NCBI GenBank assembly: GCA_015067075.1
Contig: SVND01000010.1
Location: 1 to 54,688, forward strand
Reading direction: 5' to 3'
Origin: Oscillospiraceae bacterium
Lineage (GTDB): Bacteria; Bacillota; Clostridia; Oscillospirales; SIG530
DNA length: 54,688 nucleotides
The notes under the pieces were generated by a model. That model was not told the origin of the DNA and made no database searches. It saw nothing but the letters and a program-made list of their open reading frames with translations. The position numbers and the translations under genes are program-made. Below are positions 7,072 to 39,367 of this stretch, one piece after another (position 1 is the first letter of the stretch; each line of letters starts with the position of its first letter).

Positions 7072-9312
7072 TCATTTGCATATAACCTTTACGTCCTTCG
7101 GTGCATCGACGTGGAGCTTAAGACCTGTTTCATCCTGCATCCACTGTACCGATATATCTCCGTAAGGTGTCGGTACTATACCTTCAGCAAAAACAAGACC
7201 GCAAGGATTAGGTGAAATTGTAACCTCAGTAAATCCCGGTTTCGTCGGTTTTACGCCGAGAACCTCTGCCAAAAGCTCGTGTGCAGGTGCACCGCCCCAA
7301 GCGTGACACATACTTCTGATAAAAAATTCGCTTTCAGGCCAAGCTGTAATATCAAGCTTGGACAAATTGAGCCACGGCTTCAAAAGCACGGAAAGGTCTT
7401 CATAAGCACCAGCCTTTGCTGCGCCACGAAGCACGTAAAAGCGTCCGTATATCGTTGCATGCTGGATAGTATCGTCTGTAAGCATACGTGATGCGATATC
7501 TTTTGCCTTCTCTCCGCTTACGCATCCTGCAAGTATCGCCCATGCGTTGACGCTGTCTGAAATTGCAGGAAGATCGGGAGAGTTTTTGTAATATCCACGC
7601 TCATCATCAAAACAATAAGCGTTGATAGCATTTACAATTTTAGCCGCTACTGCGTTATATTCGTTCACTTTTGCATTATCGCCAATGTAGGACAAAAGCT
7701 CGGCGGTCTTTTGAAGTGCCACTGCATATTGTGCCGAAATAAGAGCAGTAGTACCGCCGATTGCACCGTCCGGTGCACCGCCTACCCAACCGTCTACCCA
7801 GTCAACGACCTTCCAATAAGGAAGATTGCAAAGAAGATCACGGTTTCCTAAATACTTGTAAAACCATTCAAGACAACGCTTCAAGCCACTTGCAATGCCC
7901 GTTATCGTTTCCTTGTCTCCTGTATGCATATAGTAATCATATGCAGTAATTACCCAAAGAAGCGCCCAAGAGATTATCTTTTGCGGCACTCTCGTTGGAT
8001 AACGGCTTTGTGGGAAGCCCTCATTGTCTTGCGACCAATAAAACTGCCACAGCGACTGCTTTGTAAGCCTCCAATCACCCGTCATATAACCTGCAAGCAA
8101 GGATGTAACGTTCGTGTCGCCTGCATATTGAAGCTGCTCGTAATAGGGGCAATCCTCAAAGGTTTCATGGGAACAAAGCTGAAGCGTTCTGAATGAAATG
8201 TCAAAAAGTCTTTCAAGCTCCTTCTCGGAAGATGCAAACTTCGCTTTTTTATTATATGGATATGAAACAAATCTGAAACGCAAACCTGTCAAAGTAATCG
8301 GCTCGTCAGCAGTTTCAATAACAATTCTTACATATCTGAACGTGCGGAAGTTTTCAGGCTCAAAAACATGAACTCTACCATCGGCGATAATCTTGTCATA
8401 TCGTCCCGCAGGTCTGTCAGGAGTAAAATCATCCTCACGGTAAAATGCGGTTATAACTGCATTTTTGCCGTCCTTGAAGGATATTTGCGGATACGCTGTC
8501 TGTTCCCTTGCGCATTTAACAACAAAGGAAACTGTACGTTTTTCTCCGACGGTAACATTTCCGCCCTTTAAAAGAAGTGTATCTATTTCCGATTGAGAAA
8601 AATCCTCGGAACGCTCAAAGCTTGCATCGTTTTCGTAAACCTCGCGCATAAACGGAATCATTCTCGGAATAAGTCTGAACGGGACGCAAGAGTCCATAAT
8701 ACACTCGGGAGTATATCCAAAATCGATCTCTCTTGCATTTTCCCATCCAAGAGGAGTATCCTCTCCCGTCGTCCAACCCTTCGGATATTTTGACATATCA
8801 ATGGTAAGGCAGGGATCGGTTATAGTTGAAGGCTCTGAATACTGCGCATAGGATATGGCAGTATCTATCTTTGCCAGCCACGATGCATCGGTGAAAAAGC
8901 TGCGTTTTTCACCGTTTGCATCTGTAACGTCACACTCAGCTATAAATGCAGGGGTTGCCGTCATAATAGAAACAGGAACTGTAATTCCCGAATACGTCGG
9001 GAAAATGGATGAATAGTTGATTACGGAAACGGCTATTACGTTTTCACCCGTTTTAAGATATTGAGTAACGTCAATACTATCGTAAAACTGATGAGCAACG
9101 TCGCCCTTTGCAGGACCTGCAGTCACTCTTATTCCGTTAATGTACAGGGTGTATCTGCTGTCTGCGGAGATATGCACGGTCATTTTCGTTCCTTGGTACG
9201 CTTCAAACTTCTTTCTGAAACGGCAGGTCTGAACTCCACTGTGGAATTTTTCACCTGCATTAAAAGGATCATTTACTGCCCAAATCCATTTCGCTGTGTT
9301 ATTAAACGGCAT
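7072..9312 (-). CDS. GH78-family alpha-L-rhamnosidase-like glycosidase
   Basis: GH78 enzymes release terminal alpha-L-rhamnose from pectic side chains, flavonoid glycosides and similar substrates. The 746-residue protein has N-terminal beta-sandwich domains (KWIWAVNDPFNAGEKF opening; ISADSRYTLYINGIRV) and an (alpha/alpha)6 barrel that starts around SHETFEDCPYYEQLQYAGD, the family's signature region with acidic catalytic candidates. The barrel continues through SRYPTRVPQKIISWALLW and VVDWVDGW, and ends with the typical C-terminal sandwich (EVTISPNP). No signal peptide is seen, so it is probably cytoplasmic. The start at 9312 is chosen because GGAGGTG lies 8 bases upstream; the longer reading from 9327 overlaps the pheT stop. 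It is co-oriented and contiguous with pheT. Confidence 0.88.
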   Translation of the reverse strand: MPFNNTAKWIWAVNDPFNAGEKFHSGVQTCRFRKKFEAYQGTKMTVHISADSRYTLYINGIRVTAGPAKGDVAHQFYDSIDVTQYLKTGENVIAVSVINYSSIFPTYSGITVPVSIMTATPAFIAECDVTDANGEKRSFFTDASWLAKIDTAISYAQYSEPSTITDPCLTIDMSKYPKGWTTGEDTPLGWENAREIDFGYTPECIMDSCVPFRLIPRMIPFMREVYENDASFERSEDFSQSEIDTLLLKGGNVTVGEKRTVSFVVKCAREQTAYPQISFKDGKNAVITAFYREDDFTPDRPAGRYDKIIADGRVHVFEPENFRTFRYVRIVIETADEPITLTGLRFRFVSYPYNKKAKFASSEKELERLFDISFRTLQLCSHETFEDCPYYEQLQYAGDTNVTSLLAGYMTGDWRLTKQSLWQFYWSQDNEGFPQSRYPTRVPQKIISWALLWVITAYDYYMHTGDKETITGIASGLKRCLEWFYKYLGNRDLLCNLPYWKVVDWVDGWVGGAPDGAIGGTTALISAQYAVALQKTAELLSYIGDNAKVNEYNAVAAKIVNAINAYCFDDERGYYKNSPDLPAISDSVNAWAILAGCVSGEKAKDIASRMLTDDTIQHATIYGRFYVLRGAAKAGAYEDLSVLLKPWLNLSKLDITAWPESEFFIRSMCHAWGGAPAHELLAEVLGVKPTKPGFTEVTISPNPCGLVFAEGIVPTPYGDISVQWMQDETGLKLHVDAPKDVKVICK

Positions 9313-9326
9313 ACGGTACACCTCCA

Positions 9327-11729
9327 TTAAATTCCTCTCAATTTCGCTCCTGTGTCTTTTTCAAGGTTTTTCATTATTTTATTCATTATATTTTCGATCT
9401 CGCTATCTTCAAGCGTTCTGTCCGATGCACGAAGTGCAAAGGAATAAGCAACGCTCTTCTTGCCTTCGCCAACCTGTGCGCCTCGGTAAACGTCGAACAG
9501 CTGAAGGTTTTCAAGATACTGACCCGCACCCTTCTTGATTGCCTTTGCAAGCTCCGCTACAGGAACTTCATCGTCGCAGATAAGGGCAATATCACGTGTT
9601 ACAGCGGGATATTTCGGAAGAGGTACATACGTCTTTTCTTCCGCTTTGTTTGCAAAGATCAGCTCAAAGTCAAGCATTGCGGCAAAAACCTCAACGCCTT
9701 CAAGTCCGTAATTATTGCATACAAGCGGATGGACCTGACCAATGATACCAACCTCAACTCCGTCGCAAGTTACTTTCGCGCAACGGCCGGGATGGAATGA
9801 AGCGTCGTCAGTTACAGCGGAGAATTCAAGCTCTTTAACATTGAGCGCCGCTACAAGCTCTTCGATAACACCCTTTACTGCAAAGAAATCAGTATTGCCG
9901 TAGGATGCAACGGAAATTATTTTTCTTTCCTCAGGAAGCTTAGATGCATCTTCATCGGGGAGGTATATCTTACCTATCTCATAAAGCTTTGCCTGGGCGT
10001 TTCTGAAATTATAGTTTCTTGCCACACTTTCCATGATTGACGGAAGCATGGTCGTGCGCATAACGCTTGTATCTTCGCCAAGGGGGTTGAGGATAGTAAC
10101 GCTCTTGCGGCGTACATCGTCGCTCGCCAAGGCAATATTATCGTAATACTTGGGAGAGATAAATGAATATGTGAAAATTTCAGAATATCCGCAAGCAAGC
10201 ATTACGGAGTCGATCTTGCGTTTAAAACGCTGTCTGTCTGTAAGCTGACCATGAGAGCTTTCACCTCTGAAAACCGTCATAGCTATCTTATCGTAACCGT
10301 AAATACGGGCAACCTCTTCTGCAATATCGGCAAACGTTTCAACGTCCGCACGGAAGGTAGGCACTGTAATATCATCGCCGTCAAGCTCAAAATACAGTGA
10401 TGTAAGAGATTTACGCATATCAGCTTCGGGGATATCCGTTCCTAAAAATGCATTGATTCTTTCAGGCTCAAGCTTTATAACAGTCTTATTCTTGCAGGAA
10501 TTGTCAACGTCGATCATTCCGCCCACGACCTCGCCTGCACCAAGCATTTCAACAAGCTGGCAAGCACGCATAACAGCGTCATAAGTCTGTGCAGGATCAA
10601 GTCCCTTTTCAAATCTTGAGGATGCCTCTGTACGAAGACCGAGCTTTTTAGATGTAAGACGGACGGAAACACCTGAGAAATTGGCAGACTCGAAAACGAT
10701 AGTATCTGTCGTATCCAAAATCATGCTGTTTTGACCTCCCATAACGCCTGCAACGGCGACAGCTTTTTCGCCGTCAGCAATAACAAGCATTGAAGGATCA
10801 AGATTTCTTTCCTCATCATCAAGAGTGAACATCTTTTCACCCTCGCCTGCACGGCGAACATCGATCTTACCGCCGCTGATGTATGAATAGTCAAAAGCGT
10901 GCATAGGCTGACCGTATTCGAGCATAACGAAATTGGTTATATCAACGATATTATTTATGGGACGAACGCCTGCCGCGGAAAGACGGCGACGAAGCCACAG
11001 CGGTGACGGCGCGATCTTTACGTTCTTTATCATCTTTGCCGTATAACGCGGACAAAGATCGGGAGCAGAAACGGTGATCTTCAAATGTTCATTTATATCG
11101 CCTGTTTCCTTTTCAATCTGCGGTTCGGGAAGCTTTGCGGGCAAATCGAAGGTAGCCGCAGTTTCTCTTGCAAGGCCAACAACGGAAAGGCAGTCAGGTC
11201 TGTTGGGCGTAATTTCAAATTCAACAACGTTATCATCAAATCCGATAAACTGCTTAATGTCAGCACCCGGTACGAGCTGCTGGCAATCACATTCCTTTTG
11301 AAGAATGAAAATACCGTCCTCTATCGCATAGGGGAAATCGCCGAGTGTAAGGCCAAGCTCGCCAAGAGAGCAAAGCATACCGTTGGAAACAACGCCGCGA
11401 AGCTTGCCTTTTTTGATCTTGATTCCGCCCGGAAGCGTTGAATTATCAAGCGCCGCAGGAACCCAATCGCCTTTGTTTACGTTCTGTGCACCCGTTACTA
11501 TCTGTACGGGCTCTCCAACGCCGACGTCTACCTGACAAATGAACAAATGGTCACTGTCGGGATGTCTTTCAATTTCAACAACGTGACCGACTACAACACG
11601 GGATATTTCAGCGCCCAGATCCGTATAGCCTTCAACCTTTGAGCCAGACATCGTCATACGGTCGCAATATTCCTTTACAGGAACGTCTATATCAACATAA
11701 TCTTTAAGCCATCTCAATGATAAATCCAT
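9327..11729 (-). CDS. pheT: Phenylalanyl-tRNA synthetase beta subunit
   Basis: The beta chain of the alpha2-beta2 enzyme that charges tRNA-Phe. All expected parts are present in 800 residues: the N-terminal EMAP-type tRNA-binding domain (VVGHVVEIERHPDSDHLFIC), the B3/B4 editing domain (ITNFVMLEYGQPMHAFD), the B5 domain, the catalytic-like core and the C-terminal anticodon-binding domain (YPAVTRDIALICDD). The length matches the family. It is 21 bases downstream of pheS in the same T-box operon; its stop overlaps a possible upstream start of the GH78 gene. Confidence 0.97.
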   Translation of the reverse strand: MDLSLRWLKDYVDIDVPVKEYCDRMTMSGSKVEGYTDLGAEISRVVVGHVVEIERHPDSDHLFICQVDVGVGEPVQIVTGAQNVNKGDWVPAALDNSTLPGGIKIKKGKLRGVVSNGMLCSLGELGLTLGDFPYAIEDGIFILQKECDCQQLVPGADIKQFIGFDDNVVEFEITPNRPDCLSVVGLARETAATFDLPAKLPEPQIEKETGDINEHLKITVSAPDLCPRYTAKMIKNVKIAPSPLWLRRRLSAAGVRPINNIVDITNFVMLEYGQPMHAFDYSYISGGKIDVRRAGEGEKMFTLDDEERNLDPSMLVIADGEKAVAVAGVMGGQNSMILDTTDTIVFESANFSGVSVRLTSKKLGLRTEASSRFEKGLDPAQTYDAVMRACQLVEMLGAGEVVGGMIDVDNSCKNKTVIKLEPERINAFLGTDIPEADMRKSLTSLYFELDGDDITVPTFRADVETFADIAEEVARIYGYDKIAMTVFRGESSHGQLTDRQRFKRKIDSVMLACGYSEIFTYSFISPKYYDNIALASDDVRRKSVTILNPLGEDTSVMRTTMLPSIMESVARNYNFRNAQAKLYEIGKIYLPDEDASKLPEERKIISVASYGNTDFFAVKGVIEELVAALNVKELEFSAVTDDASFHPGRCAKVTCDGVEVGIIGQVHPLVCNNYGLEGVEVFAAMLDFELIFANKAEEKTYVPLPKYPAVTRDIALICDDEVPVAELAKAIKKGAGQYLENLQLFDVYRGAQVGEGKKSVAYSFALRASDRTLEDSEIENIMNKIMKNLEKDTGAKLRGI

Positions 11730-11750: not shown

Positions 11751-12782
11751 TTAAAACTGGCTGAGAAAACGCATATCGTTTTCATAGAACAAGCGTATAT
11801 CTTTAATACCGAAGCGACGCATAACAACACGTTCAAGACCTACACCGAAAGCAAAACCGCTGTATTCCTTCGGGTCAACGCCGCAAGTTTCAAGCACCTT
11901 AGGATGTACCATGCCGCATCCGAGAATTTCGATCCAGCCCTCGCCCTTGCAAAGTCTGCATCCTGCTCCGTGACAGTTAAAGCACATAACGTCCATTTCA
12001 GCAGACGGCTCCGTAAACGGGAAATGATGGGGGCGGAAGCGTGTGACAGAGTCCTCGCCGTAAAGACGCTTTGCAAAAATATCAAGCGTACCCTTAAGGT
12101 CGGACATTGTAATCCCCTTATCTACGACAAGACCTTCTATCTGATGGAAAAGCGGAGAGTGAGTTGCATCGAGTGCATCACTTCTGTAAACACGGCCGGG
12201 AGCAATAACTCTTATGGGCGGTTTTTGCTTCTCCATAACACGGATCTGAACGGGAGAGGTCTGTGTACGCAAAACGATGTTATCATCAATATAGAACGTA
12301 TCCTGAACGTCGCGTGCAGGATGGTTTTTCGGCACGTTAAGAGCTTCAAAGTTATAATAATCAAGCTCTACTTCGGGGCCCTCCGCAATATTAAAGCCCA
12401 TTGTAAGGAAAATATCTTCGATTTCTTCCTGTACTATCGTAAGAGGATGCTTATAGCCAAGTGCATTTACTTTACCCGGCATTGTAACGTCAAGCTTTTC
12501 TTCCGCAAGCTTTTTCGTAAGCATTTCAGCCGCGATAGCCGTCTTTTTCGTTTCGATCAGCTTTTCAATACCTTCGCGTATTTCATTTGCAAGCTGTCCT
12601 ATAAGCGGACGCTCCTCTGCGGACAATGCGCCCATTCCGCGAAGCACAGCCGTCAGTTCACCTTTTTTGCCGAGATATTTAACGCGAACAGCCTCAATAT
12701 CCTCGTTAACCTTTGCCTGTTCAAGGGCAAGCTGTGCCTGCTGCCCAATCTGGTTGAGTTTCTCTCTCATTGAGTTTTTCAT
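11751..12782 (-). CDS. pheS: Phenylalanyl-tRNA synthetase alpha subunit
   Basis: The catalytic alpha chain (343 residues). An N-terminal coiled coil (about 1-85) precedes a class II aminoacyl-tRNA synthetase core: [14 protein letters not shown], motif 2 around [23 protein letters not shown], and motif 3 near [12 protein letters not shown]. Two starts are possible, ATG 12782 (directly after AAAGG, with GGAAG 6 bases away) and ATG 12770. Expression is controlled by the Phe-specific T-box immediately upstream. Confidence 0.97.
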
Positions 12783-12799: not shown

Positions 12800-13080
12800 T
12801 TGCGGCTCATGTAAAATAAAAGGCTCGTTCATCCAATACATGGGACGAAAGAGCCTTGTCATTCCGCGGTACCACCCAGCTTTTGCGCTTTTTGCGCAAC
12901 ACCTTCGGCGAAGCTATAACGTGCTTCATTCGTCATATCCTGAGCCGTGCTTCGGATATGCAGCTCCAAAGTGAACTTCACAACGCTGTATGCGATGACT
13001 GCTTTCAGCCTCAGGCCGTCACTCTCTTTACGCATATATTCAGCAAAGCTACTCTCTTTTTCATTGCCTTTGTATTAAGT
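12800..13080 (-). promoter_or_regulatory. T-box riboswitch, tRNA-Phe specific, controlling pheST
   Basis: On the minus strand the conserved T-box sequence GGGTGGTACCGCG (within 12861-12880) is followed by a terminator (12811-12856: AGGCTC pairing with GAGCCT, then TTTTATTTT). Upstream, stem I contains GAAGTTCACTTTGG with TTC (complement of 12973-12975) as the specifier, a Phe codon followed by the usual A. Uncharged tRNA-Phe would pair with both sites and block termination. This fits the pheST genes downstream. Confidence 0.95.
12811..12856 (-). terminator. T-box regulated terminator
   Basis: Minus-strand AGGCTCTTTCGTCC pairs with GGATGAACGAGCCT (short internal mismatch) and is followed by TTTTATTTT. 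The T-box sequence lies just upstream and supplies the antiterminator. Confidence 0.85.
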
Positions 13081-13131: not shown

Positions 13132-14727
13132 TTATATATTTTCGTCATTCCAAGAGAAAGAAACCTCACCTTGGCTTGTGTACCATTTTTCAGACAGCGC
13201 ACAGACTGTATCATATCCGAAGCTGTCTTTTATTTTTCGATAATGCGGTGTCATCCAGTCAAGGGGACGAAAGCTCTTATCATTTTCTATCACAGCTTTA
13301 AACGCTTTTTTAACGGCATTTTCAACCTTTTCATCAAAGGCGACGTCATCGCTAAGTGAAACAAAAAGTACGGTTCCGCTCTTCGCGACGAGTGACATCC
13401 ACTTTTCAGTCAAAGCCCATGGAATTTTTGATGTAATAGGAACGCAATCGGCATCAGCAGCGAAAAACGCTTCATCCTGAGCCAATCTGTACGTCAACGT
13501 GTTTGCACCCATGCGAACAGTTCTGTCCCACTCAAGCCCACTTACATCATCGCCGATTCGCTGAAGCTCAAAAATCCCTGCACAAAGATGATTAAGGGCG
13601 TTACAGCCAAGAATATAAACATCATCGCCCGCCGCTTCTCTTATGGCTCGGTGAAGGGCAAGAACAATTTCAGCAGTTGTTCTGCTCTTATCGCAAAAAT
13701 CAGCCGTTTGTGCAAAGCCGTCAGCCATTTCAAAGCCCCATTTGTGACATATATCAAAGGTAAGAAAATCTGTCTTAATAAGCTTAAATCCGCAATCCTT
13801 GAGATATTTCACTTCATTTTTAATATATTTGATCACTTCATCGACAGATGGATCGAGAAAGCTATCCTCTTCCCTTTCGGAAAAATGAAGATAACAGCTT
13901 TCGGGTAGAACACGGTACGCCTGCAACGGACGTATCCAAATGCCCGGCTTTACACCAAGCTCCTCCAGCTTTTCAGCAAAAAGCTTTATATCACCGAACT
14001 TCTTATTTCCGCGCCACGGTCCGCCTATAAAGCCAGGGTAGGCATTTTTGTTTATTTCCCAGCCTTCGTCAATTATCATATACGGCTTCGGGGCATTTTC
14101 GGGCACGCATTTAACGAGCTTTCTTGTCATTTTCAGCATTTTTTCACCGTTGTTATTGCCGTAATCGCAATACCAATCGTTGCCACCATAGATTACCTCT
14201 TTCGGCAAACGGGGGGACGGACACATGAGTGTACAAAAATCCTTCATTGCATCAAACGTATCACCCGTATACGTTTTAGCCAAAACTGTGCAAGCATCTA
14301 TTGTGCGGCCTGCAAGCATCAAAGGATTTTTACCGCTTCGAAGATCCACATAAAGCTCAACGTGCTCCTCGTGTAAACGCCACGAGCACATGGCATTGGG
14401 CTGGACCTCTACGCCGTATGCGTATGTTTTTTCACCATCGTTAGCTAAAAAATACCATGGCATATCACACATCTGCTCCGCGTTTTTCCAGCCCATTTCA
14501 GCGTACGAACGCTCCCATGCGTCGGAAAGCACTTTAACGTTTTTTGAAAAAATGCGTGGAAATTTAAGTGAAACTGCGCAAATAGGTGTAAAAATCGCCG
14601 TTAAAGAAAGCTTTAAATCTTCAAAAGTCAATCTTACGTCCTCGTATACAAGCTTTCTTTCTTTTAATATGAGTGCCAATTCTTCGCCGTTTGTAGTGTA
14701 TACTGTAACAAGTACGTCCCTAAGCAT
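13132..14727 (-). CDS. GH36/GH27-like alpha-galactosidase-type glycosidase
   Basis: The 531-residue protein has a short N-terminal sandwich and a clan GH-D TIM barrel: GGNDWYCDYGNNN, PYMIIDEGWE, KPGIWIRPL, then FKLIKTDFL with the likely nucleophile Asp in the K-x-D motif, and FELQRIGDDVSGLEW with the likely acid/base Asp. This matches the alpha-galactosidase/raffinose-synthase group in layout, but exact substrate specificity cannot be told. There is no signal peptide, so it is probably cytoplasmic. GGGGG lies just upstream of the ATG. It is the last gene of the operon with the kinase and three phosphoesterases, with no clear terminator before the T-box promoter. Confidence 0.8.
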   Translation of the reverse strand: MLRDVLVTVYTTNGEELALILKERKLVYEDVRLTFEDLKLSLTAIFTPICAVSLKFPRIFSKNVKVLSDAWERSYAEMGWKNAEQMCDMPWYFLANDGEKTYAYGVEVQPNAMCSWRLHEEHVELYVDLRSGKNPLMLAGRTIDACTVLAKTYTGDTFDAMKDFCTLMCPSPRLPKEVIYGGNDWYCDYGNNNGEKMLKMTRKLVKCVPENAPKPYMIIDEGWEINKNAYPGFIGGPWRGNKKFGDIKLFAEKLEELGVKPGIWIRPLQAYRVLPESCYLHFSEREEDSFLDPSVDEVIKYIKNEVKYLKDCGFKLIKTDFLTFDICHKWGFEMADGFAQTADFCDKSRTTAEIVLALHRAIREAAGDDVYILGCNALNHLCAGIFELQRIGDDVSGLEWDRTVRMGANTLTYRLAQDEAFFAADADCVPITSKIPWALTEKWMSLVAKSGTVLFVSLSDDVAFDEKVENAVKKAFKAVIENDKSFRPLDWMTPHYRKIKDSFGYDTVCALSEKWYTSQGEVSFSWNDENI

Positions 14728-14743
14728 GATTATGCCCCCTAAA

Positions 14744-16201
14744 TCAGCTGTTTTTAAGCATTTGATAGCCTTTCATCCAAATCTGTTCTTTTTCTTTATA
14801 TAACTTCACGAGCTCGCTGTCAGCTTCTACAGCAGTATGCTTGTTGAATTTTTCTCCCGCCGCTTCATAGCTTTCTAACATTCCGGATGAAACGCCTGCC
14901 ATTATAGCCGCACCCACGGAGCACGCGTCGGCATTTGCAACTATTTCAACAGGAACATCCATAATTGAAGCGGCTATCTGACGCCAGATAGGACTTTTTG
15001 CCGCGCCGCCCGACATGATAAGTGACTTTGGCGCAAATCCTGCACCAATATAAGAATTAAGTGCATTTTTGATGGTAAAGCACGCCCCCTCCATCGCCGC
15101 ACGCATTACGTCAAAGCGGTCATTGTGAAGCTCCAAACCCAACACCGTAGTTTTAACGTCGGGGCGCTGTACAGGGAACGGAATTCCGTTAAAAAACGGA
15201 TAGAAGCAAACCTTTTTAGCACTTTCTGCTCTCTTTTCCGCTTCCAAATCCGCTTCCTTGAAGGATACATCGGAAAGCATCGTGTCCTTATACCACTGAA
15301 CAGCCTTGCCTGCACCGCCAATAGATGCAATAGCACCGTATATTCCCTTTTCTACGTGAATGCCCGGTGCGATATATGCTGATGAAAAAAGCATTTTATC
15401 GCATATGGCGTTGATAACCCACGACGTGCCCGTAGCCAAAAGCATATCGCCGTTTTTCATCGCGCCGCATCCGACAGCCGCCGCATACTGATCGTGAGCA
15501 CCGCTGTAAAGCTCTGTTTCAGGCGTCAGCCCTGTATCTGCGCAAGCCTGTGCTGTCAAGTTTCCGAGCTTTACACCCGACGGTACAAGCTTCGGAAGCT
15601 TATCCTCCGATATTTCTAAAAATTCAAGAACCTTTTTGTCATATGAAAGCGTTTTTACATCGAATATCTGGCGCATTGCGGAGTTTGAATAATCGCAAGC
15701 CAACACTCCGCAAAGTCTGTATACAACGTAATCGTGTGTATTCAAAAACCATTTTGTTTTCGCAAACAATTCAGGCTCATTTCTTCTCATCCACAAAAGC
15801 TTTGCTGGGTCGAAGCAAGCGTTTTTGCGCCATCCGCTCATATTGTAAAGATAATCCTTGCCGAAGAACTCTTCCGCTTCCAACGCTTCGCTTTGCGCTC
15901 GACTGTCCATCCAAGTCATGACAGGGCGAACGGGGTCAAAATTCTCGTCAAGCATCGCCGTGCTTCCGCCTTGTGTTGACAACGATATCGCCTTCACCTT
16001 AGAACGGTCGATATCCTTCACAGCAACACAAATAGCTTTAACCGATGCATCGTACCAATCTCTGCAGTCCTGCTCAGCTTCGCCGTTTTTACCTGTAGCA
16101 AGGGAATACTCAACAGCGGCACTTCCCATAAGCTCGCCGTTTATATCACATACAGCCGCTTTTACCTGTGTTGTTCCTACATCTAAACCTAAAATATACA
16201 T
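14744..16201 (-). CDS. FGGY-family carbohydrate kinase (xylulokinase-like)
   Basis: These kinases phosphorylate sugars or polyols with ATP. The 485-residue length fits. The N-terminal phosphate-1 motif is LGLDVGTTQVKAAV (about 4-17), WMDSRAQ is the sugar-contact region, ATGTSWV and ASIGGAGKAVQWYK are in the C-terminal domain, and MSGGAAKSPIWRQI is the adenosine motif. The pattern is closest to xylulokinases, but the family also includes rhamnulo-, fuculo- and glycerol kinases, so the substrate is left open. AAAGGA precedes the ATG. It lies between a GH36-like gene and three phosphoesterases, suggesting one sugar-use operon. Confidence 0.85.
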   Translation of the reverse strand: MYILGLDVGTTQVKAAVCDINGELMGSAAVEYSLATGKNGEAEQDCRDWYDASVKAICVAVKDIDRSKVKAISLSTQGGSTAMLDENFDPVRPVMTWMDSRAQSEALEAEEFFGKDYLYNMSGWRKNACFDPAKLLWMRRNEPELFAKTKWFLNTHDYVVYRLCGVLACDYSNSAMRQIFDVKTLSYDKKVLEFLEISEDKLPKLVPSGVKLGNLTAQACADTGLTPETELYSGAHDQYAAAVGCGAMKNGDMLLATGTSWVINAICDKMLFSSAYIAPGIHVEKGIYGAIASIGGAGKAVQWYKDTMLSDVSFKEADLEAEKRAESAKKVCFYPFFNGIPFPVQRPDVKTTVLGLELHNDRFDVMRAAMEGACFTIKNALNSYIGAGFAPKSLIMSGGAAKSPIWRQIAASIMDVPVEIVANADACSVGAAIMAGVSSGMLESYEAAGEKFNKHTAVEADSELVKLYKEKEQIWMKGYQMLKNS

Positions 16202-16216
16202 TTAATTATCCTTTCA

Positions 16217-17065
16217 TTACATCGGTAAAAACGTTACCGCCGTTGCAAAATCACAAACACCGATATGAGAGACTATCTGCGTTTTGCCGTTTCCAAATTC
16301 TCCGCAGTCATTCAAATGTACGTGACCTGCAAAAACACCTATCACATTTTCGCTTTCTGCTAAAAGCCTGCAAAACTCCGCTGTCGGTGCATCTGCAATC
16401 GTATATATACAGTTATATTTCTTCGCAAGCTCTTCAGACACGTTCATTAAGTATGTTTTTCCCCACACTTTAACCGTTGGTTCAATTATTGTATCAACAG
16501 CCATTGGTACATGAAAAGCAGCGATAACAGGCTTGCCCGTTTCTATCTGCTTGCGCAAAAACTCTGTCTGCTCGGGCTTCATTTTATAAAGAGCATTGTC
16601 AAAGGTAGCGATTATAATACCACCGATCTCAATGGCATCCATACGCATATTTCTTCCAACAGCTTGTTCGATTTCGGGAAAATGTATCGCTTTCGTGTCT
16701 TCGCAGGCACGCTCGTCGGCATAGCACCAATCGTGGTTTCCAACAGCATATGCGAAGGGAATCTTTAAAGATCCGAGCTTTTCGGAAATAAACTTCAAAT
16801 TGTATTTTGACGGAAAATCAATAATATCACCCGTCATAACGATTCCGTCAAAATCATTTTCCTCAGCGTAGTTCAAAAACTGTTCAAAGCGTTTTTCCGC
16901 CTGCAAAGGCTCCTGATAAAACACGGGCTTGCGGCGCTCTGCTTCCGACCTTGCATGGTCATCGTCGCTTTCATCAGCTCCCGTTATATGTTGATCTGTA
17001 AGGTGTAAAAGCTTTACAGGCTTTTTTACAAGACTCGTCTTCAAAGTCAATTCTCTGATTTTCAA
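16217..17065 (-). CDS. Calcineurin-like metallophosphoesterase, copy 3 of 3
   Basis: A 282-residue member of the binuclear-metal phosphoesterase superfamily with all usual motifs: LTDQH (Asp, His), MTGDIIDF, VGNHDWCY, AFHVP and AGHVH. It starts with TTG at 17065, 8 bases after AAGGAG. It is one of three tandem paralogues that share SKYN, NHDWCYA and the PTAEFC-LLAES-NVIGV block; this copy alone keeps the canonical GHxH. The substrate is unknown; cyclic nucleotide, sugar phosphate or phospholipid phosphodiesters are all possible for the superfamily. No signal peptide. Confidence 0.85.
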   Translation of the reverse strand: MKIRELTLKTSLVKKPVKLLHLTDQHITGADESDDDHARSEAERRKPVFYQEPLQAEKRFEQFLNYAEENDFDGIVMTGDIIDFPSKYNLKFISEKLGSLKIPFAYAVGNHDWCYADERACEDTKAIHFPEIEQAVGRNMRMDAIEIGGIIIATFDNALYKMKPEQTEFLRKQIETGKPVIAAFHVPMAVDTIIEPTVKVWGKTYLMNVSEELAKKYNCIYTIADAPTAEFCRLLAESENVIGVFAGHVHLNDCGEFGNGKTQIVSHIGVCDFATAVTFLPM

Positions 17066-17077
17066 TTTATATTCTCC

Positions 17078-17932
17078 TTACGCTTTTTTTGGAATTAACG
17101 TCACAGCCGTTGCACATCCCCAAACACCGATATCCGATACGATCTGGAACTTGTTGTTGCCAAACGAGCATATATGACTGCAATGAATATCGCCTACAAA
17201 AACACCGATAACATTGTCGCTTTCCGCAAGCAGCTTACAAAATTCAGCTGTCGGTTCATCGGCAGTAGCATAAGGTATTTTGTATTCCTGCGCCTTTTCT
17301 TCGGGCACAGCCATCATTACAGGACGTCCCCAATGTTTAATTGTGCATTCCATAACGCTTTCAGTCGCTATGGGATGGTGAAAAGCCGCGATCAAAGGCT
17401 TCCCTTTTTCTATTTCCTTTTTTAAAAATTCCGTCTGATAGTCTTTGACACGGAAAAGCGAATTATCAAAGGTCGCAACCGTTATACCTGCAATTTCAAA
17501 GGTGTCCATTCTCAAATTTACACCTATCTCCTGCTCGATTTCAGGAAAATGCAAAACCTTTGTCGGCTCACGCGGCGGCTCGTCAGCATAGCACCAATCG
17601 TGATTTCCTATTGCAAATGCGTAGGGTATTTTTAGATCTTTCAGCTTTTTTGCAAGGTATTTCATATTGTATTTCGACGGAAAATCAATGATGTCACCTG
17701 TAAAAATTATTCCGTCAAATTCATTTTCCTCCGCAAAAGCAATAAGCTTTTCAAAATTACGCTCCGCTTGCAGAGGCTCCTGATAAAACACAGGCTCACG
17801 GCGTTCAGCCTCCGCTCTTGCGTGATCGTCGTCAGTTTCATCAGCACCCGTTATATGCTGATCTGTAATGTGTAAAAGCTTTACGGGCTTATCAATAAGA
17901 TGTGTCTCAAATGTATACTCTGTTATATTCAT
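17078..17932 (-). CDS. Calcineurin-like metallophosphoesterase, copy 2 of 3
   Basis: The 284-residue middle paralogue carries ITDQH, FTGDIIDF, IGNHDWCY and AFHHP, but its last motif is VGDIH: Asp replaces the first His of GHxH. In most family members that His belongs to the metal or active-site shell, so chemistry or metal preference may differ from copy 3. GGAGG lies 7 bases before the ATG. It begins 2 bases after copy 1 ends, consistent with one transcript. Confidence 0.85.
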   Translation of the reverse strand: MNITEYTFETHLIDKPVKLLHITDQHITGADETDDDHARAEAERREPVFYQEPLQAERNFEKLIAFAEENEFDGIIFTGDIIDFPSKYNMKYLAKKLKDLKIPYAFAIGNHDWCYADEPPREPTKVLHFPEIEQEIGVNLRMDTFEIAGITVATFDNSLFRVKDYQTEFLKKEIEKGKPLIAAFHHPIATESVMECTIKHWGRPVMMAVPEEKAQEYKIPYATADEPTAEFCKLLAESDNVIGVFVGDIHCSHICSFGNNKFQIVSDIGVWGCATAVTLIPKKA

Positions 17933-17934
17933 AA

Positions 17935-18789
17935 TTACGCCTCCTCAGGTACAAGCGTTACAGCCGATGCAAAATCCCATACACCGATAGCTGAAACAAC
18001 TTGAGTTTTACCGTTGCCAAACGTGCCGATATTATTAAAATGTACGTCCCCTGCCAAAATGCCGATAACATTCTCGCTTTCGCCCAAAAGACGGCAAAAC
18101 TCCGCCGTCGGTTCGTCAGCTACTGTATGGGGAATGTTGTATTTTTCAGCAATTTCACGGGGCAGATTCATAAGAGATGGGCGCTTCCATATCTTCGTTG
18201 TCGGCTCAATTATCGTATCCACAGCCATAGGACAATGAAACGCCGCAATAAGCGGTTTTCCCAATGCGATCTGCTCGCGCAAAAACTCCGTTTGCTCAGG
18301 CTTTACTCTATAAGCAGTGTTATCGAAGGTTGCGACGGTGACACCCGCTATATCAATTGCATGCATACGCACACTTCGCTCGATAGCGCTTTCGATTTCA
18401 GGAAAATGTATATCTCTCGTTGCATCGCATGACTTTTCGGTAGCATAACACCAATCATGATTTCCAATGGCGTAAGCAATGGGCTTTTTAAATTCCTTCA
18501 TCTTTTTCGCCAAGTAATCAATATTATATTTTGACGGAAAATCTATAATATCGCCTGTCAAAACAACTCCGTCAAAATCGCCTTTTTCGCCAATATCCAA
18601 AAGGCGCTCAAAGCAACGCTCTGCAAGCTGATGAATGTGAGCAAAAACAGCCTCACGGCGCACGGCTTCGCTTTTTACAAGCTCATCTTCCGTTTCGTAT
18701 GCACCCGTTATATGCTGGTCCGTTATATGTAAAAGCTTGACAGGCTTTTTGACAAGCTTTGTTTTTATTTTAATATTTCTGATGTCCAT
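17935..18789 (-). CDS. Calcineurin-like metallophosphoesterase, copy 1 of 3
   Basis: The 284-residue first paralogue carries ITDQH, LTGDIIDF, IGNHDWCY and AFHCP, and its last motif is AGDVH, again with Asp in place of the first His of GHxH. GAAGGAAAG precedes the ATG. It opens the five-gene operon (three phosphoesterases, FGGY kinase, GH36-like). Its start is only about 85 bases from the end of alaS, with a terminator-like hairpin between, so the promoter must lie in that gap or transcription reads through. Confidence 0.85.
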   Translation of the reverse strand: MDIRNIKIKTKLVKKPVKLLHITDQHITGAYETEDELVKSEAVRREAVFAHIHQLAERCFERLLDIGEKGDFDGVVLTGDIIDFPSKYNIDYLAKKMKEFKKPIAYAIGNHDWCYATEKSCDATRDIHFPEIESAIERSVRMHAIDIAGVTVATFDNTAYRVKPEQTEFLREQIALGKPLIAAFHCPMAVDTIIEPTTKIWKRPSLMNLPREIAEKYNIPHTVADEPTAEFCRLLGESENVIGILAGDVHFNNIGTFGNGKTQVVSAIGVWDFASAVTLVPEEA

Positions 18790-18815: not shown

Positions 18816-18868
18816 AAAAAAAGCAAAGACATAAAACCCATCTCAAAAAGAAACGAGCTTTATGTCTT
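18816..18868 (-). terminator. Terminator after alaS
   Basis: On the minus strand AAGACATAAA (complement of 18859-18868) pairs with TTTATGTCTT (18826-18835), followed by TGCTTTTTTT. The loop is about 23 bases. Confidence 0.7.
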
Positions 18869-18873
18869 GAAAT

Positions 18874-21504
18874 TTATATTTTTTCTATTGCGGCAAAGAC
18901 AGCATCAATAGCCTGCGCTATCTTGCTTGCATCACGTCCGCCTGCGCTTGCGCTGTCAGGTCTGCCGCCGCCGCCACCGCCGGTGATCTTTGCAGCTTCA
19001 CGAATGATATTGCCTGCATGAGCTCCCTTCGCCACGGCAGCCTTGCCACAACAAGCAGCCCAAAGCACCTTGCCGTCAGCAGGACAAGCAAGAACTACGA
19101 CAGAATTTTCATTTTTATCTCTGATAAGCTCCGCTGTCATTCTGAGTGTATCGGCATCAACACCCGAAAGCTCGGTTGCAACAACTGTCAAACCGCCAAT
19201 TTCTTTTGCGTTTTTAACTATTTCATCGATACCGCTTTGTGCAAGCTTCTTGTTAAGCTCGTCAACAGTCTTAGCCGTCGCCTTAAGCTCAGCCATTACA
19301 GCGTTTGCGCGCGTTGCAATGTCATTTACGTTCTGTGCCTTAAGGGCAGATGCCGTCTGCTCCATGAGCTCGGCATTTTTATGGATATAATCAAGAACAT
19401 TAAGTCCCGTAATACCTTCTATTCTGCGAACACCGGAAGCAACGGAGCTTTCGGAAACGAGCTTGAAAAGACCAAGCTTTGCTGTATTATCTATATGCGT
19501 ACCTCCGCAAAGCTCCGCAGAGAAATCGCCCATCTTAACGACGCGGACGGTGTCTCCGTACTTTTCACCGAAAAGTGCGGTTGCGCCCATCGCCTTTGCG
19601 CTGGCAATGTCAGTTACAAGAGTTTCAACAGCCAAGCCTTTGAGTATTTCAGCGTTTACGATGCTTTCCGTTTCTGCAAGCTCCTGAGCTGTCATAGCTG
19701 AAAAATGAGTAAAGTCAAAACGGACTCTGTGCTCGTCAACGTAAGAGCCAGCCTGCTCGATATGATTGCCGAGAACCTTTCTGAGTGCAGACTGGAGAAG
19801 GTGTGCCGCACTGTGGTTACGTCTGATCGCGTCACGTCTTTCAGCATTTATAGCCGCATTTACCTTGTCTCCGACACGGATCATGCCGACGTCAACCGTA
19901 ACATGGTGAAGATAAACACCCGTTGCAGTCTTTTTCGTATCGGTTACGGTAAGAGAAGCGCTTTCCGACTTGATAGAACCGATATCACCTATCTGACCGC
20001 CGCCTTCACCGTAAAACGGAGTTTTATTCAAAACTACTACACAGCTCTGACCTTCTGCCGCCGCATCTGTAAGCTCGCCGTCAACAGCGATTGCCATAAT
20101 TTCAGCTTCGCTCTCATTTTCGGCATATCCCGTAAACTCGGTTGCCGCCGCATCCTTGAATGCGTCGCCCTTTACCTTCCATGCGCTGTCATCTGCGTTT
20201 CTTGCCGCTCTCGCGCGTGCACGCTGTTCCTGCATAAGCTCGTCAAAGCGCTTTTCATCAACGCTTATACCGCGTTCAGAGAGAATATCAACAGTAAGGT
20301 CAAGTGGGAATCCGTAAGTATCGTAAAGCTTGAATGCAAGCTCGCCGTCAAGAACCTTGTCGTCAGTTTTGGCTGTTTCTTCGATAAATCCGTTGAGCAT
20401 TGCAAGACCTGCGTCAATAGTATCGTTGAAGCGCTCCTCTTCGTTAAGGATGACCTTCTTGATAAACTCGCGCTTTTCAGCAAGCTCGGAATACTCGCTC
20501 AAGTTTTCATTTATAACCGTGTCACAGATCTCGCTGAGGAAAACGCCCTTTATACCAAGGAGTCTGCCATGACGAGCTGCACGGCGAAGAAGGCGGCGAA
20601 GAACGTATCCTCTGCCCTCGTTGGACGGAAGAATACCGTCACCGACCATGAAAGTCGTGCTTCTGATATGGTCTGTAATTACACGAAGGCTGATGTCAGT
20701 CTTCTTATCTGCGCCGTATTCCACGTTTGCGACACGGGAAATATGCTTCATTATATTCTGAACTGTATCGACCTCGAAAAGGTTGTCAACACCCTGCATA
20801 ATGCAAGCAAGACGCTCAAGTCCCATACCTGTATCGATATTGGACTTTTCAAGTCTCGTATAATTATTATTACCGTCGTTGTCGAACTGTGTGAAAACGA
20901 GATTCCAGAATTCAACGAATCTGTCGCAGTCACAGCCTACCTTGCAATCAGGCGAGCCGCATCCCTTTTCGGGTCCGCGGTCAAAATATATCTCGGAGCA
21001 AGGACCGCAGGGACCTGCGCCATGCTCCCAGAAGTTATCTTCCTTGCCAAGGCGAACCATATGGTCAGGAGCAACGCCGATTTCCTTCGTCCAAATGTCG
21101 TATGCTTCGTCATCTTCAAGATATACGGAAACGTAAAGCTTGTCAGCAGGAATTTCCAATGTCTTTGTGATAAACTCCCAAGCCCAAGCTGTAGCTTCGT
21201 GCTTGAAGTAATCGCCAAAGGAGAAGTTGCCAAGCATCTCGAAATACGTACCGTGACGAGCCGTTTTGCCTACGCGCTCAATATCAGGTGTACGGATGCA
21301 CTTTTGGCAGGTTGTTACACGGTGGCACGGCGGCTCGGCTTCACCCTTGAAATAAGGCTTGAGCGGCGCCATACCTGCGTTTATCAGAAGAAGGGATTTG
21401 TCGTTGAGGGGAACGAGCGGAAAGCTCTTCATTCTCAAATGTCCCTTCGATTCAAAAAAGGATAAATACTTTTCTCTCAGTTCGTTAAGTCCTGTCCATT
21501 TCAT
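18874..21504 (-). CDS. alaS: Alanyl-tRNA synthetase
   Basis: The enzyme charges tRNA-Ala and edits Ser/Gly mischarging. The 876-residue length is typical. The class II core is at the N-terminus (NAGMAPLKPYF, RHGTYFEMLGNFSFGDYFK, GMGLERL), the editing domain has the zinc-type NHSAAHLLQ and ELCGGTHIDNT motifs, and the C-Ala oligomerisation domain ends with the Gly-rich TGGGGGGRPDSASAGG segment. GAGGT lies upstream of the ATG. A good promoter is visible but no T-box, unlike pheS. Confidence 0.97.
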   Translation of the reverse strand: MKWTGLNELREKYLSFFESKGHLRMKSFPLVPLNDKSLLLINAGMAPLKPYFKGEAEPPCHRVTTCQKCIRTPDIERVGKTARHGTYFEMLGNFSFGDYFKHEATAWAWEFITKTLEIPADKLYVSVYLEDDEAYDIWTKEIGVAPDHMVRLGKEDNFWEHGAGPCGPCSEIYFDRGPEKGCGSPDCKVGCDCDRFVEFWNLVFTQFDNDGNNNYTRLEKSNIDTGMGLERLACIMQGVDNLFEVDTVQNIMKHISRVANVEYGADKKTDISLRVITDHIRSTTFMVGDGILPSNEGRGYVLRRLLRRAARHGRLLGIKGVFLSEICDTVINENLSEYSELAEKREFIKKVILNEEERFNDTIDAGLAMLNGFIEETAKTDDKVLDGELAFKLYDTYGFPLDLTVDILSERGISVDEKRFDELMQEQRARARAARNADDSAWKVKGDAFKDAAATEFTGYAENESEAEIMAIAVDGELTDAAAEGQSCVVVLNKTPFYGEGGGQIGDIGSIKSESASLTVTDTKKTATGVYLHHVTVDVGMIRVGDKVNAAINAERRDAIRRNHSAAHLLQSALRKVLGNHIEQAGSYVDEHRVRFDFTHFSAMTAQELAETESIVNAEILKGLAVETLVTDIASAKAMGATALFGEKYGDTVRVVKMGDFSAELCGGTHIDNTAKLGLFKLVSESSVASGVRRIEGITGLNVLDYIHKNAELMEQTASALKAQNVNDIATRANAVMAELKATAKTVDELNKKLAQSGIDEIVKNAKEIGGLTVVATELSGVDADTLRMTAELIRDKNENSVVVLACPADGKVLWAACCGKAAVAKGAHAGNIIREAAKITGGGGGGRPDSASAGGRDASKIAQAIDAVFAAIEKI

Positions 21505-22105: not shown

Positions 22106-24463
22106 TCAATGAGCGCCCGCATCCTGTATTGGTTGCGGTGTGACAGCTCCGTCGCTATCCTGCGCAATATATTCGCCGACTCCGCCTGCAACGGCACGAA
22201 TATTGTTGCACATAATAAACGGACCCCAATAGTAATTTATGAGCGTGCCCTCAACGCCGCGGTCGATATTGTCTTCGCTTACAGTCATCATAAAGTCTAC
22301 CATATAGCGCTCCGCCTCGTTGCAAAGCTCAACAATCATTTCCTTATCGCCGTCCGAAAGCTTTTCAAGCTCGAGCCTTACTTTTTCTCTGTCAAAGCTC
22401 ACAAGTGCGTATTTCAGCGTGGACATAGCCGTCATATGTAATTTCGCGCCTGTGTTTGCATTGCTGATAAGCTTAAGCATTCTTGCATTTTGAGGATGGT
22501 CAGCTTCAGCGCTAGCCTTCAAAAGTGCATCAGCAATTTCACCGTAGCCCTCGGCGGCATTGCTCATACTCCAAGCATCCCACCACCAAAGAGCATCCAT
22601 CCTTCCGTCCTTTCCGACGTTCCACGTACTTTTAAGCGCAAAAGCAACATTGCCGGGCAAATTGCGTATATCGCTCATGGCATCAAGCTTCATCATCGCG
22701 TTTACAAACGGCTTTGTATCCTCAATTCCAATGCTTACCGCATAATCAGTTACAAAAGCCTCAGGCGTGAGCTTACCGTCAAAAGAGACCTCGGAAAGAT
22801 ATCTGAACGACATATAGTTTTCAGCCGTTCTCCAATGATTGCATACAAGGGCATAGACAGGCTCACCCGTTTTCTCCTTAACAAAATCAACCATGTTTTT
22901 TATACCGCTTGCGGAAAACTGATTCAAATACATAAATCCGTCAAATTCCACCCAGCTGTAAATAACAGTTTTCTTTAAAAGCTCCGTGCTTATCTCAGAG
23001 GCTTCGAGATTATCTGCCGCATACTGCGCAGAGTGGGCAGGCATTACGGTATACGTTACATTTTTCGGTATATTTTCCTTAGCAAGCTTGTTGCAAAACT
23101 CAAGAGTTTTTGCATTTACAACATACGAGCCGACAGAAAGCCCGATCTGCATCTTCTCTTGCCAACCGCTGTCAATAAGATGATTTACAAGCCTTATGGC
23201 ATATGCAAGATCGCGCACAGGACCTGAATACTTATCAGGTGCGTCGTAATAATACTTTTTATCAACGTCGCTTCCCTTTTCCGTATTAAGTATCTCATAA
23301 AATACAGCCGTTTGCGTATTTTCAAAATCGTCAGGCAGCTCATCACCCGTTTCACGAGTCATAAATTCAAGACCATCTATCATCGGATAGCTTTTCAATA
23401 TCCTGTCACAAAGGCGTTTATTCTCTTCTTCATCGCCAAGCTTAAGCTCCGTTGAAAGCTGAACGAACATACCGCAACGCGATGCCTCAGCCATAACGCT
23501 CGCAAGCCATTGCTCCGCGACCTCTCCTCGCTCTTTCCACGTGTAGTAATATTGCTCTATTTCAGGCATACAAAAATATTGCGTATTAAATCTTACCTGC
23601 TCTTTTATAAGCGGATAATCGGGCATCGCAAAATGCTCACCATAGAAAAACGCGCCGTTAAAAAGCTCAACGTCAAAGGGCGAAAATTTCTTTCTCGTCC
23701 AATCGTGCCAATATCCGCAGGCTGAAACGTTCTTGTACTGCTCCCAAGTCCAATGTCCCGGATAGCTGTGAAATGCCATAAAATTGTAACGCATTCTGGC
23801 AAGATTGCGGATATATTCCTTCGCTTCACCCAAGGGATAAGATGAAATATCCATTGTAAAATTGATATGCTGGCGCACACCTCTTCGCAAAATATCAGGC
23901 TTTATCTCCGCATACTCAGTTGGCACGCTGTCAAAATCAAGCTTTTCGGGAATTATTGCGCCCGTTACCTCAAACCTATAGCCCATATCCTCCAAAGCCG
24001 TATACATGGCGTGGAGCGTTTCCGTAGGTGTTCTACCCGTAAGCGTTATTTTAACGGAGCTTCCGCTTTTTTCAGCCACTCTTGCAAAAGCAAACTCATC
24101 CATAGCCTCTGAAAGCTCAAAAACGAAGGTTATACTTTCATCCGCCTTCAAAGGCTTTACAGCCTTGCAGAAAAGTTCCGCTTCCTCCCTAGCAAAATCG
24201 AACACTTCCGACTGGCACGGAAAAACAAATTCAACCTGTCTGTCGTAACTTGCAATGTTCTCGTTAAAAGGCTTGCCGTTTTCTTCGTTCATCATGTAAG
24301 GATTCTCCTTTTCATCTATAGGTGTGGGTGTCGGCGTTTGCGTAGCACTCGGTGCGTGTGTAACGCTCGGTGCGGGCGTAGACTGTGCTTCACCGTTTTC
24401 GGTGCATGAGCAAAGCATAAAAGCAATAATCAGCATTACCAAAACATAAATTATCCGTTTCAT
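22106..24463 (-). CDS. Large lipoprotein with glycosidase-like (GH20/GH67/DUF4838-type) architecture
   Basis: The 785-residue protein has a signal peptide with lipobox LCSC (Cys about 20) and a Thr/Pro linker (about 28-50). An N-terminal domain ending in ETLHAMYTALEDMGYRFEV resembles the small domain that precedes TIM barrels in GH20, GH67 and DUF4838 proteins. It continues with ILRRGVRQHINFTMDIS, a Trp/Tyr-rich barrel-like region (NFMAFHSYPGHWTWEQYK, GLEFMTRETGDELPDDFE) and a helical C-terminus. Surface-anchored polysaccharide hydrolysis is plausible, but no catalytic pair can be assigned with confidence. TTGAAT-17-TAAAAT lies upstream. It is followed by a small lipoprotein gene. Confidence 0.7.
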   Translation of the reverse strand: MKRIIYVLVMLIIAFMLCSCTENGEAQSTPAPSVTHAPSATQTPTPTPIDEKENPYMMNEENGKPFNENIASYDRQVEFVFPCQSEVFDFAREEAELFCKAVKPLKADESITFVFELSEAMDEFAFARVAEKSGSSVKITLTGRTPTETLHAMYTALEDMGYRFEVTGAIIPEKLDFDSVPTEYAEIKPDILRRGVRQHINFTMDISSYPLGEAKEYIRNLARMRYNFMAFHSYPGHWTWEQYKNVSACGYWHDWTRKKFSPFDVELFNGAFFYGEHFAMPDYPLIKEQVRFNTQYFCMPEIEQYYYTWKERGEVAEQWLASVMAEASRCGMFVQLSTELKLGDEEENKRLCDRILKSYPMIDGLEFMTRETGDELPDDFENTQTAVFYEILNTEKGSDVDKKYYYDAPDKYSGPVRDLAYAIRLVNHLIDSGWQEKMQIGLSVGSYVVNAKTLEFCNKLAKENIPKNVTYTVMPAHSAQYAADNLEASEISTELLKKTVIYSWVEFDGFMYLNQFSASGIKNMVDFVKEKTGEPVYALVCNHWRTAENYMSFRYLSEVSFDGKLTPEAFVTDYAVSIGIEDTKPFVNAMMKLDAMSDIRNLPGNVAFALKSTWNVGKDGRMDALWWWDAWSMSNAAEGYGEIADALLKASAEADHPQNARMLKLISNANTGAKLHMTAMSTLKYALVSFDREKVRLELEKLSDGDKEMIVELCNEAERYMVDFMMTVSEDNIDRGVEGTLINYYWGPFIMCNNIRAVAGGVGEYIAQDSDGAVTPQPIQDAGAH

Positions 24464-39227: not shown

Positions 39228-39245
39228 ATAGAAAAATTCAATACT

Positions 39246-39367
39246 TCGGGGCAGGGTGAAATTCCCGATCGGCGGTGCAGTCCGCGAGCGCTTTTGCGCA
39301 GAACCGAGCCAAGCTTTTGCTTGTAATACGGTACCGACAGTTAAAGTCTGGATGAAAGAAGAAACGT
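39246..39367 (+). promoter_or_regulatory. FMN riboswitch (RFN element)
   Basis: The conserved RFN blocks are present in order: GGGGCAGGGTGAAATTCCCG, GGCGGTGCAGTCCGCGAGCG, then CCGACAGTTAAAGTCTGGATG and AAAGAAGAAACG. The segment between holds a variable hairpin. It would sense FMN and turn off the following riboflavin transporter gene through the downstream terminator. Confidence 0.97.

Follow-up and report, generated by a model that had tools for sequence, protein, structure and literature searches.

A tandem triplet of metallophosphoesterase genes

The window, a stretch of 54,688 nucleotides that was analysed whole (contig SVND01000010.1 of Oscillospiraceae bacterium assembly GCA_015067075.1), contains three metallophosphoesterase genes, MPE1, MPE2 and MPE3, lying head to tail as full open reading frames on the minus strand from 18789 to 16217 (Table 1). 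On this strand MPE3 is last in transcription and lowest in coordinates. The genes are separated by only 2 bp (MPE1/MPE2) and 12 bp (MPE2/MPE3), and a Shine-Dalgarno-like stretch can be read from the sequence before each start. All three proteins score above the PF00149 gathering score of 21.5 bits (33.1, 41.6 and 34.7 bits for MPE1, MPE2 and MPE3). Their pairwise identities are 58, 62 and 63-64%, and copies that differ this much within a 54.7-kb contig rule out an assembly artefact.

Of eight metal-site positions checked, seven (D24, H26, D80, N110, H111, H185 and H250) are common to MPE1, MPE2 and MPE3, and the sole difference is the first histidine of the GHxH motif, H248, which MPE3 keeps (codon CAC) and which is aspartate in both MPE1 (GAC) and MPE2 (GAT). 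A preliminary description of this DNA had reported three head-to-tail paralogues of near-equal length with GDIH, GDVH and GHVH motifs and a His-to-Asp change in two of them; its coordinates and motifs were correct, and we confirm that the tandem triplet with an altered metal motif is real, rightly described and uncommon at the residue level. Elsewhere in the same genome, six further PF00149 matches carry GHxH (L132-L135, L137 and L139), with L138 and L141 outside this count.

Table 1. Coordinates of the genes and other features of the window that are discussed in the text.
Feature	Coordinates	Strand	Remarks
alaS (alanyl-tRNA synthetase, by eye)	18874..21504	-	upstream neighbour, outside cluster
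Terminator-like stem	18826..18868	-	19 pairs and T run, between alaS and MPE1
MPE1, metallophosphoesterase copy 1	17935..18789	-	284 aa, ATG start, last motif AGDVH
MPE2, metallophosphoesterase copy 2	17078..17932	-	284 aa, ATG start, last motif VGDIH
MPE3, metallophosphoesterase copy 3	16217..17065	-	282 aa, TTG start, canonical AGHVH
FGGY-family sugar kinase	14744..16201	-	15 bp after MPE3; best NCBIfam match a xylulokinase model, below cut-off
Alpha-galactosidase-like protein	13132..14727	-	531 aa, 16 bp after kinase, without Pfam match
T-box leader	12838-13073	-	upstream of pheS, starts next unit
pheS (by eye)	11751-12782		after T-box leader
Alpha-L-rhamnosidase-like gene	7072-9327	-	directly follows pheT, 1-base overlap
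Open frame opposite alaS	19705-21465	+	586 aa
Open frame opposite pheS	11904-12773	+	289 aa
Lipoprotein-like protein	22106-24463	-	785 aa
FMN riboswitch	39238-39367	+	just 5' of small membrane protein
Small membrane protein	39464-40060		
GH32-like gene, first	41702-43093	+	
GH32-like gene, second	43113-44501	+	

We read the stretch 18789-13132 as a single putative unit of five genes (three MPEs, the kinase and the alpha-galactosidase-like gene), because a terminator-like stem precedes MPE1, the later gaps measure 15 and 16 bp, and a T-box leader starts the next unit, which sets the MPE cluster apart from pheST. The stem is the longest of the terminator-like sites in the region, of which 7 were found against 7.1 expected in shuffles. 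The kinase scored 313 bits against the xylulokinase model, whose cut-off is 380, and its closest solved relative is the gluconate kinase 3gbt. For the 531-aa protein the solved relatives are alpha-galactosidases alone, at weak E values of 0.006-0.007. The name of alaS was given by eye from its sequence, and pheS and pheT, which follow the T-box leader, were likewise named by eye.

Across the window, glycosidase genes are interspersed with translation genes. The long frames antisense to alaS and pheS are probably shadow frames of codon usage. The 785-aa lipoprotein-like protein had no Pfam or NCBIfam match at 0.01, and the small membrane protein next to the FMN riboswitch resembles by eye what we take to be a riboflavin transporter of the RibU type. 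The two tandem GH32-like genes are 81% identical over 463 aa, with differences mostly in the N-terminal half and C-terminal 160 residues that are near-identical, as if by gene conversion.

Fold and metal site

When the family profile was compared with solved structures, Rv0805 came first (4.4e-7) and GpdQ followed as a weak match (4.6e-5). AlphaFold predictions for MPE1 and MPE3, both based on 66 aligned family proteins, reached a mean pLDDT of 96.7 and 97.2, and the structures closest to the MPE1 model were Rv0805 (Z 21.8), Lmo2642 (Z 20.8) and GpdQ (Z 20.2); Foldseek with the same model again returned Rv0805 and GpdQ. Structure prediction, which the preliminary description had suggested as a check of the metal site, places MPE1 in the Rv0805/GpdQ fold. 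As both fold and profile point to these two enzymes, the site is that of a two-metal phosphoesterase. By homology with the solved structures, we take metal 1 to be held by D24, H26 and H250, metal 2 by N110, H185 and H248, and D80 to bridge them. The aspartate of MPE1 and MPE2 is then at the metal-2 ligand position H248, a ligand role assigned by homology.

The signature of class III phosphodiesterases, as worded in a passage of PMC4320098, is D(X)H-GD-GNHD-H-GH(X)H. MPE3 carries all seven signature motifs (TDQH, GDIID, GNHD, FH, GHVH), and MPE1 and MPE2 depart from the signature at GH(X)H with GDVH and GDIH. The fold of the class, that of Rv0805, is found in the MPE1 model, with 203 residues superposed at an rmsd of 2.5. 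Against the NCBIfam equivalogs CpdA (NF008359), SpdA (NF050112) and YaeI (NF008460), scores of 15.4-28 bits fell below cut-offs of 188-400. From the fold, phosphodiesters are the likely substrate class of the MPEs.

The aspartate is rare among relatives

To place the change we assembled a set of 71 family proteins, from which near-identical duplicates, proteins shorter than 200 aa after clipping and L131 (111 aa, at a contig end) were dropped. L130 (202 aa, N-terminus missing) is counted among the 71 and is absent from the trees; five weak partial matches (L163-L167, profile positions 149-279) lie outside the set, as do L175 and L176, both canonical, which were found after the count. MPE1 and MPE2 are the only two of the 71 proteins with aspartate at position 248, which is histidine in the other 69. 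D24 and H26 occur in all 70 rows that include the N-terminus, and D80, H111, H185 and H250 in all 71, while position 110 varies, with 55 Asn, 10 Ser, 5 Gly and 1 Thr. With histidine in 69 of 71 proteins, the aspartate of MPE1 and MPE2 is not a chance state of a variable position, and the idea that GDxH is canonical in this subfamily, which the preliminary description had set against its own reading, is ruled out.

The genomes searched comprised 98 relatives, 394 of the order, 391 of the class, 398 of the phylum and 31 of the order of G563, in overlapping sets, together with 5 of the genus and 20 of the family of G136, a genome described below; the family of the window's own genome (G000) is represented by that genome alone. 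Among all of these, G000 alone yielded the exact triplet. Alignment with MPE1 or MPE3 gave identities of 17-32% for other family members, and local matches reached at most 34%. The preliminary description had asked whether GD and GH forms are kept as a set in other genomes, and no relative with such a set was seen in the genomes searched. It had also held that a triplication unique to this strain would count against it; this is literally what we observe, and it weighs little in data without a near relative.

Tandem arrays in family f10 change the same metal site

All 16 proteins with an altered N110 belong to one family of the same order, f10, where they occur mainly in tandem arrays. The residues at position 110 are N,S,S in G136; S,S,S in G229; T,G,G,S in G191; G,S in G211; and S,G in G148, the G191 and G211 arrays being followed to the edges of their loci. 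Like the window, these arrays consist of head-to-tail paralogues in which a ligand of the same metal is changed and the rest are intact; unlike the window, they change the Asn of GNHE rather than the His of GHxH, and they form a separate clade. Tandem MPEs with GSHE, GGHE or GTHE are kept between species in two f10 genera (L124 5232-8712, L125 5573-7223 and L171 5581-7216).

With the window included, 15 of the 17 tandem copies and 3 of the 54 other proteins are altered at metal 2; metal 1 is altered in 0 of 71 where the residues are present. The three altered copies counted as non-tandem are L129, a true singleton, and L126 and L127, which come from a single genome and both sit at the end of a contig. 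No array holds more than one canonical copy: G136 and the window (D,D,H) have one each, and the others none.

We rejected the Fisher's p of 1e-10 for tandem versus altered as a clean test on two grounds: the copies share ancestry, and the sampling of f10 was steered by the G136 array, which had been seen before the genus and family of that genome were sampled. On the 66-row tree the states require 4 changes (one for Asp, three for N110), and on a tree built without the two trait columns altered and canonical states require 5; within the f10 clade taken by itself (29 rows), at least 3 changes are needed at N110. Paired comparisons yielded 6 independent pairs, with a mean of 2.7 in the same direction, none opposite and a median p of 0.25. 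With so few independent events, the link between duplication and the metal-2 change is suggestive, not proven. The full tree joined MPE1 and MPE2 (99/85), whereas the tree without columns 110 and 248 joined MPE1 and MPE3 (90/53) and recovered MPE1 with MPE2 in 10% of bootstraps. A single origin of the aspartate was dropped as unproven, since the grouping is lost without the trait columns, and the trees allow either one origin or two.

When the surroundings of the relatives' MPEs were screened for conserved genes, the commonest shared clusters were open frames antisense to the MPEs, and a recurring sugar kinase was not apparent among neighbours judged by eye and in part by Pfam scans. Some relatives are fused to S-layer homology domains (L065, 6796-8319) or to GH20 domain 2 (L062, 7553-8896). 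These domains make L065 and L062 candidate surface-bound or glycan-linked phosphoesterases, so relatives would act in different places.

The altered copies appear constrained

dN/dS was 0.157 for MPE1-MPE3 and 0.147 for MPE2-MPE3 at a dS of about 1.7, and dS was saturated between MPE1 and MPE2. For orthologous altered copies in G191 and G211 the ratios were 0.081 and 0.144, which indicates that the altered forms are kept, and two G229 copies gave 0.140. Judged by these ratios, altered copies are under purifying selection.

This constraint bears on whether MPE1 and MPE2 are simply redundant and losing function. Counts of unique changes, which are rough because the outgroups are remote, are somewhat higher for MPE1 than for MPE3 (means 17.1 and 11.0; MPE1 more in 56 of 63 comparisons with outgroups that are not independent), as ongoing decay would predict. 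MPE2, however, is barely faster than MPE3 (13.7 versus 12.3; more in 31 of 63), and both altered genes are open over their full length, have good ribosome sites, keep their other motifs intact and show low dN/dS, which makes decay highly improbable.

The low dN/dS, the near-identical lengths and the 58-64% identity would also suit a near-neutral history in which the aspartate is tolerated, the GD copies remain active as ordinary phosphodiesterases and the triplication only raises dose. Aspartate often serves as a metal ligand in proteins generally. Yet none of the other 69 family members has it at position 248, and a dS of about 1.7 marks the copies as long diverged rather than as recent additions to dose, so we consider a dosage effect unlikely.

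A model for the triplet

We favour, with a probability of roughly one half, a lineage-specific operonic triplication of an Rv0805/GpdQ-like phosphodiesterase in which MPE3 remained standard and the GD copies were weakened or re-specified at metal 2. MPE3, with all ligands kept, is most likely a standard two-metal phosphodiesterase, and MPE1 and MPE2 are most likely retained variants whose second metal is weakened or has a new specificity. The observed anatomy and fold, with one ligand changed and all else conserved, leave the metal-1 site (D24, H26, H250 and bridging D80) and the phosphate-side histidine H111 of MPE1 and MPE2 intact. For metal preference, activity and substrate we infer the following. 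Aspartate at 248 would present a charged, harder oxygen ligand instead of a neutral imidazole, and metal 2 might then be held more weakly or another metal be favoured (Mn/Mg over Zn/Fe). MPE1 and MPE2 could act beside MPE3 as metal-gated or differently specific phosphodiesterases. The substrate may be a phosphorylated glycoside or a glycerophospho-glycoside that the kinase and the alpha-galactosidase-like protein also process, a guess at a sugar-linked or glycerol-linked phosphodiester that we make because the neighbouring genes suggest such substrates.

Against this explanation stand the lack of a close relative in which GD copies are kept across species, an inter-copy dS near or at saturation, the dependence of the MPE1-MPE2 grouping on the trait columns, and the small number of independent events behind the link between tandem and altered copies. 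In addition, damage to the metal-2 site can simply kill the enzyme, since N97A, at the sister ligand, renders Rv0805 catalytically inactive and lowers its metal occupancy (passages of PMC3776917 and PMC13001264). MPE1 and MPE2 could then be pseudoenzymes, dead or nearly so, that serve as ligand-binding or regulatory partners of MPE3 in a hetero-oligomer. A scaffold of the same fold, VPS29, offers a precedent (PMC3101248), and the ligand pattern of the two copies is compatible with a VPS29-like pseudoenzyme and not decisive for it. Gaps as short as 2 and 12 bp would suit co-translation, and the finding of at most one canonical copy per array also speaks for such partners. But MPE1 and MPE2 retain every other ligand and the phosphate-side histidine; the metal-1 ligands, H111 and H185 are invariant where present across the 71 proteins, which is unexpected for dead sites drifting freely; and the G229, G191, G211 and G148 arrays have no canonical copy to regulate (G191 and G211 as far as their loci reach). 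A pseudoenzyme role is the strongest of the rival readings, and on balance somewhat unlikely. The f10 arrays naturally carry a change at the position used experimentally to kill Rv0805, yet their genes persist.

The preliminary description had proposed a division of labour among the copies. That proposal finds partial support: GD is non-canonical (2 of 71), the copies look constrained, and changes at this metal site recur in related tandem arrays, as division of labour would have it. The description did not include the wider pattern, with the Asn of GNHE changed in other arrays, or the clustering of the triplet with a sugar kinase and a glycosidase-like gene.

The arrays raise a broader and rather doubtful possibility, namely that tandem duplicates in at least two families of one order have been retuned recurrently and convergently. 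In each case metal 1 would be left untouched and a non-bridging metal-2 ligand swapped (His to Asp, or Asn to Ser, Gly or Thr). The products would function together as sets, either as phosphodiesterases that use one metal or are metal-gated, or as partners free of metal. Laboratory mutants have been the main means of studying whether two-metal phosphoesterases can do without their second metal, can exchange it or use it as a regulatory switch. The arrays provide a natural series of paralogues within one operon that differ at one metal-2 ligand, with a standard copy alongside in the window and in G136, and comparing them would directly test the role of metal 2 and the idea that enzymes turn into partners once duplicated. 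Should the copies be no more than tolerated variants, the locus reduces to an ordinary duplicated enzyme.

Comparison with known systems

The superfamily, the fold, the class III signature quoted above and natural loss of a metal ligand in MPPED2 are already known. Neither tandem MPE arrays with changed metal-2 ligands nor GDXH or GDVH motifs appeared among the matches listed in a search of open-licence literature, a scope that does not imply absence from print.

GpdQ, the glycerophosphodiesterase of Enterobacter aerogenes (PDB 2zo9, 3d03), aligns with the MPE1 model over 213 residues at 16% identity (Z 20.2); it has canonical metal ligands, and its second metal is weakly held. Rat MPPED2, a metallophosphodiesterase (PDB 3rl3, and 3rl4 for the G252H mutant), naturally has Gly where relatives have His, at what we take to be the first His position of GHxH. 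It differs from MPE1 and MPE2 in being an animal protein, in carrying Gly rather than Asp, and in its distance (Z 14.9). A histidine is what distinguishes MPPED1 from MPPED2, according to PMC10547211. VPS29 of the retromer resembles MPE1 and MPE2 in having a degenerate metal site on the same metallophosphatase fold, with vestigial metal binding and a metal-independent scaffold function (PMC3101248); unlike them it is eukaryotic, has an Asp ligand changed to Asn39 and is not a tandem paralogue.

The closest system is Rv0805, the class III cyclic-nucleotide phosphodiesterase of Mycobacterium tuberculosis (PDB 2hy1, 3ib7), which is both the best solved sequence match to the family and the closest fold, with 24% identity between 2hyp and the MPE1 model over the superposition given above. 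It shares all seven motifs of MPE3, and its GHxH contrasts with the GDxH of MPE1 and MPE2. Asn97 of Rv0805 is named as a metal ligand in a passage of PMC3776917, and the N97A laboratory mutant reads GAHD at the place that is naturally Ser, Gly or Thr in the f10 arrays.
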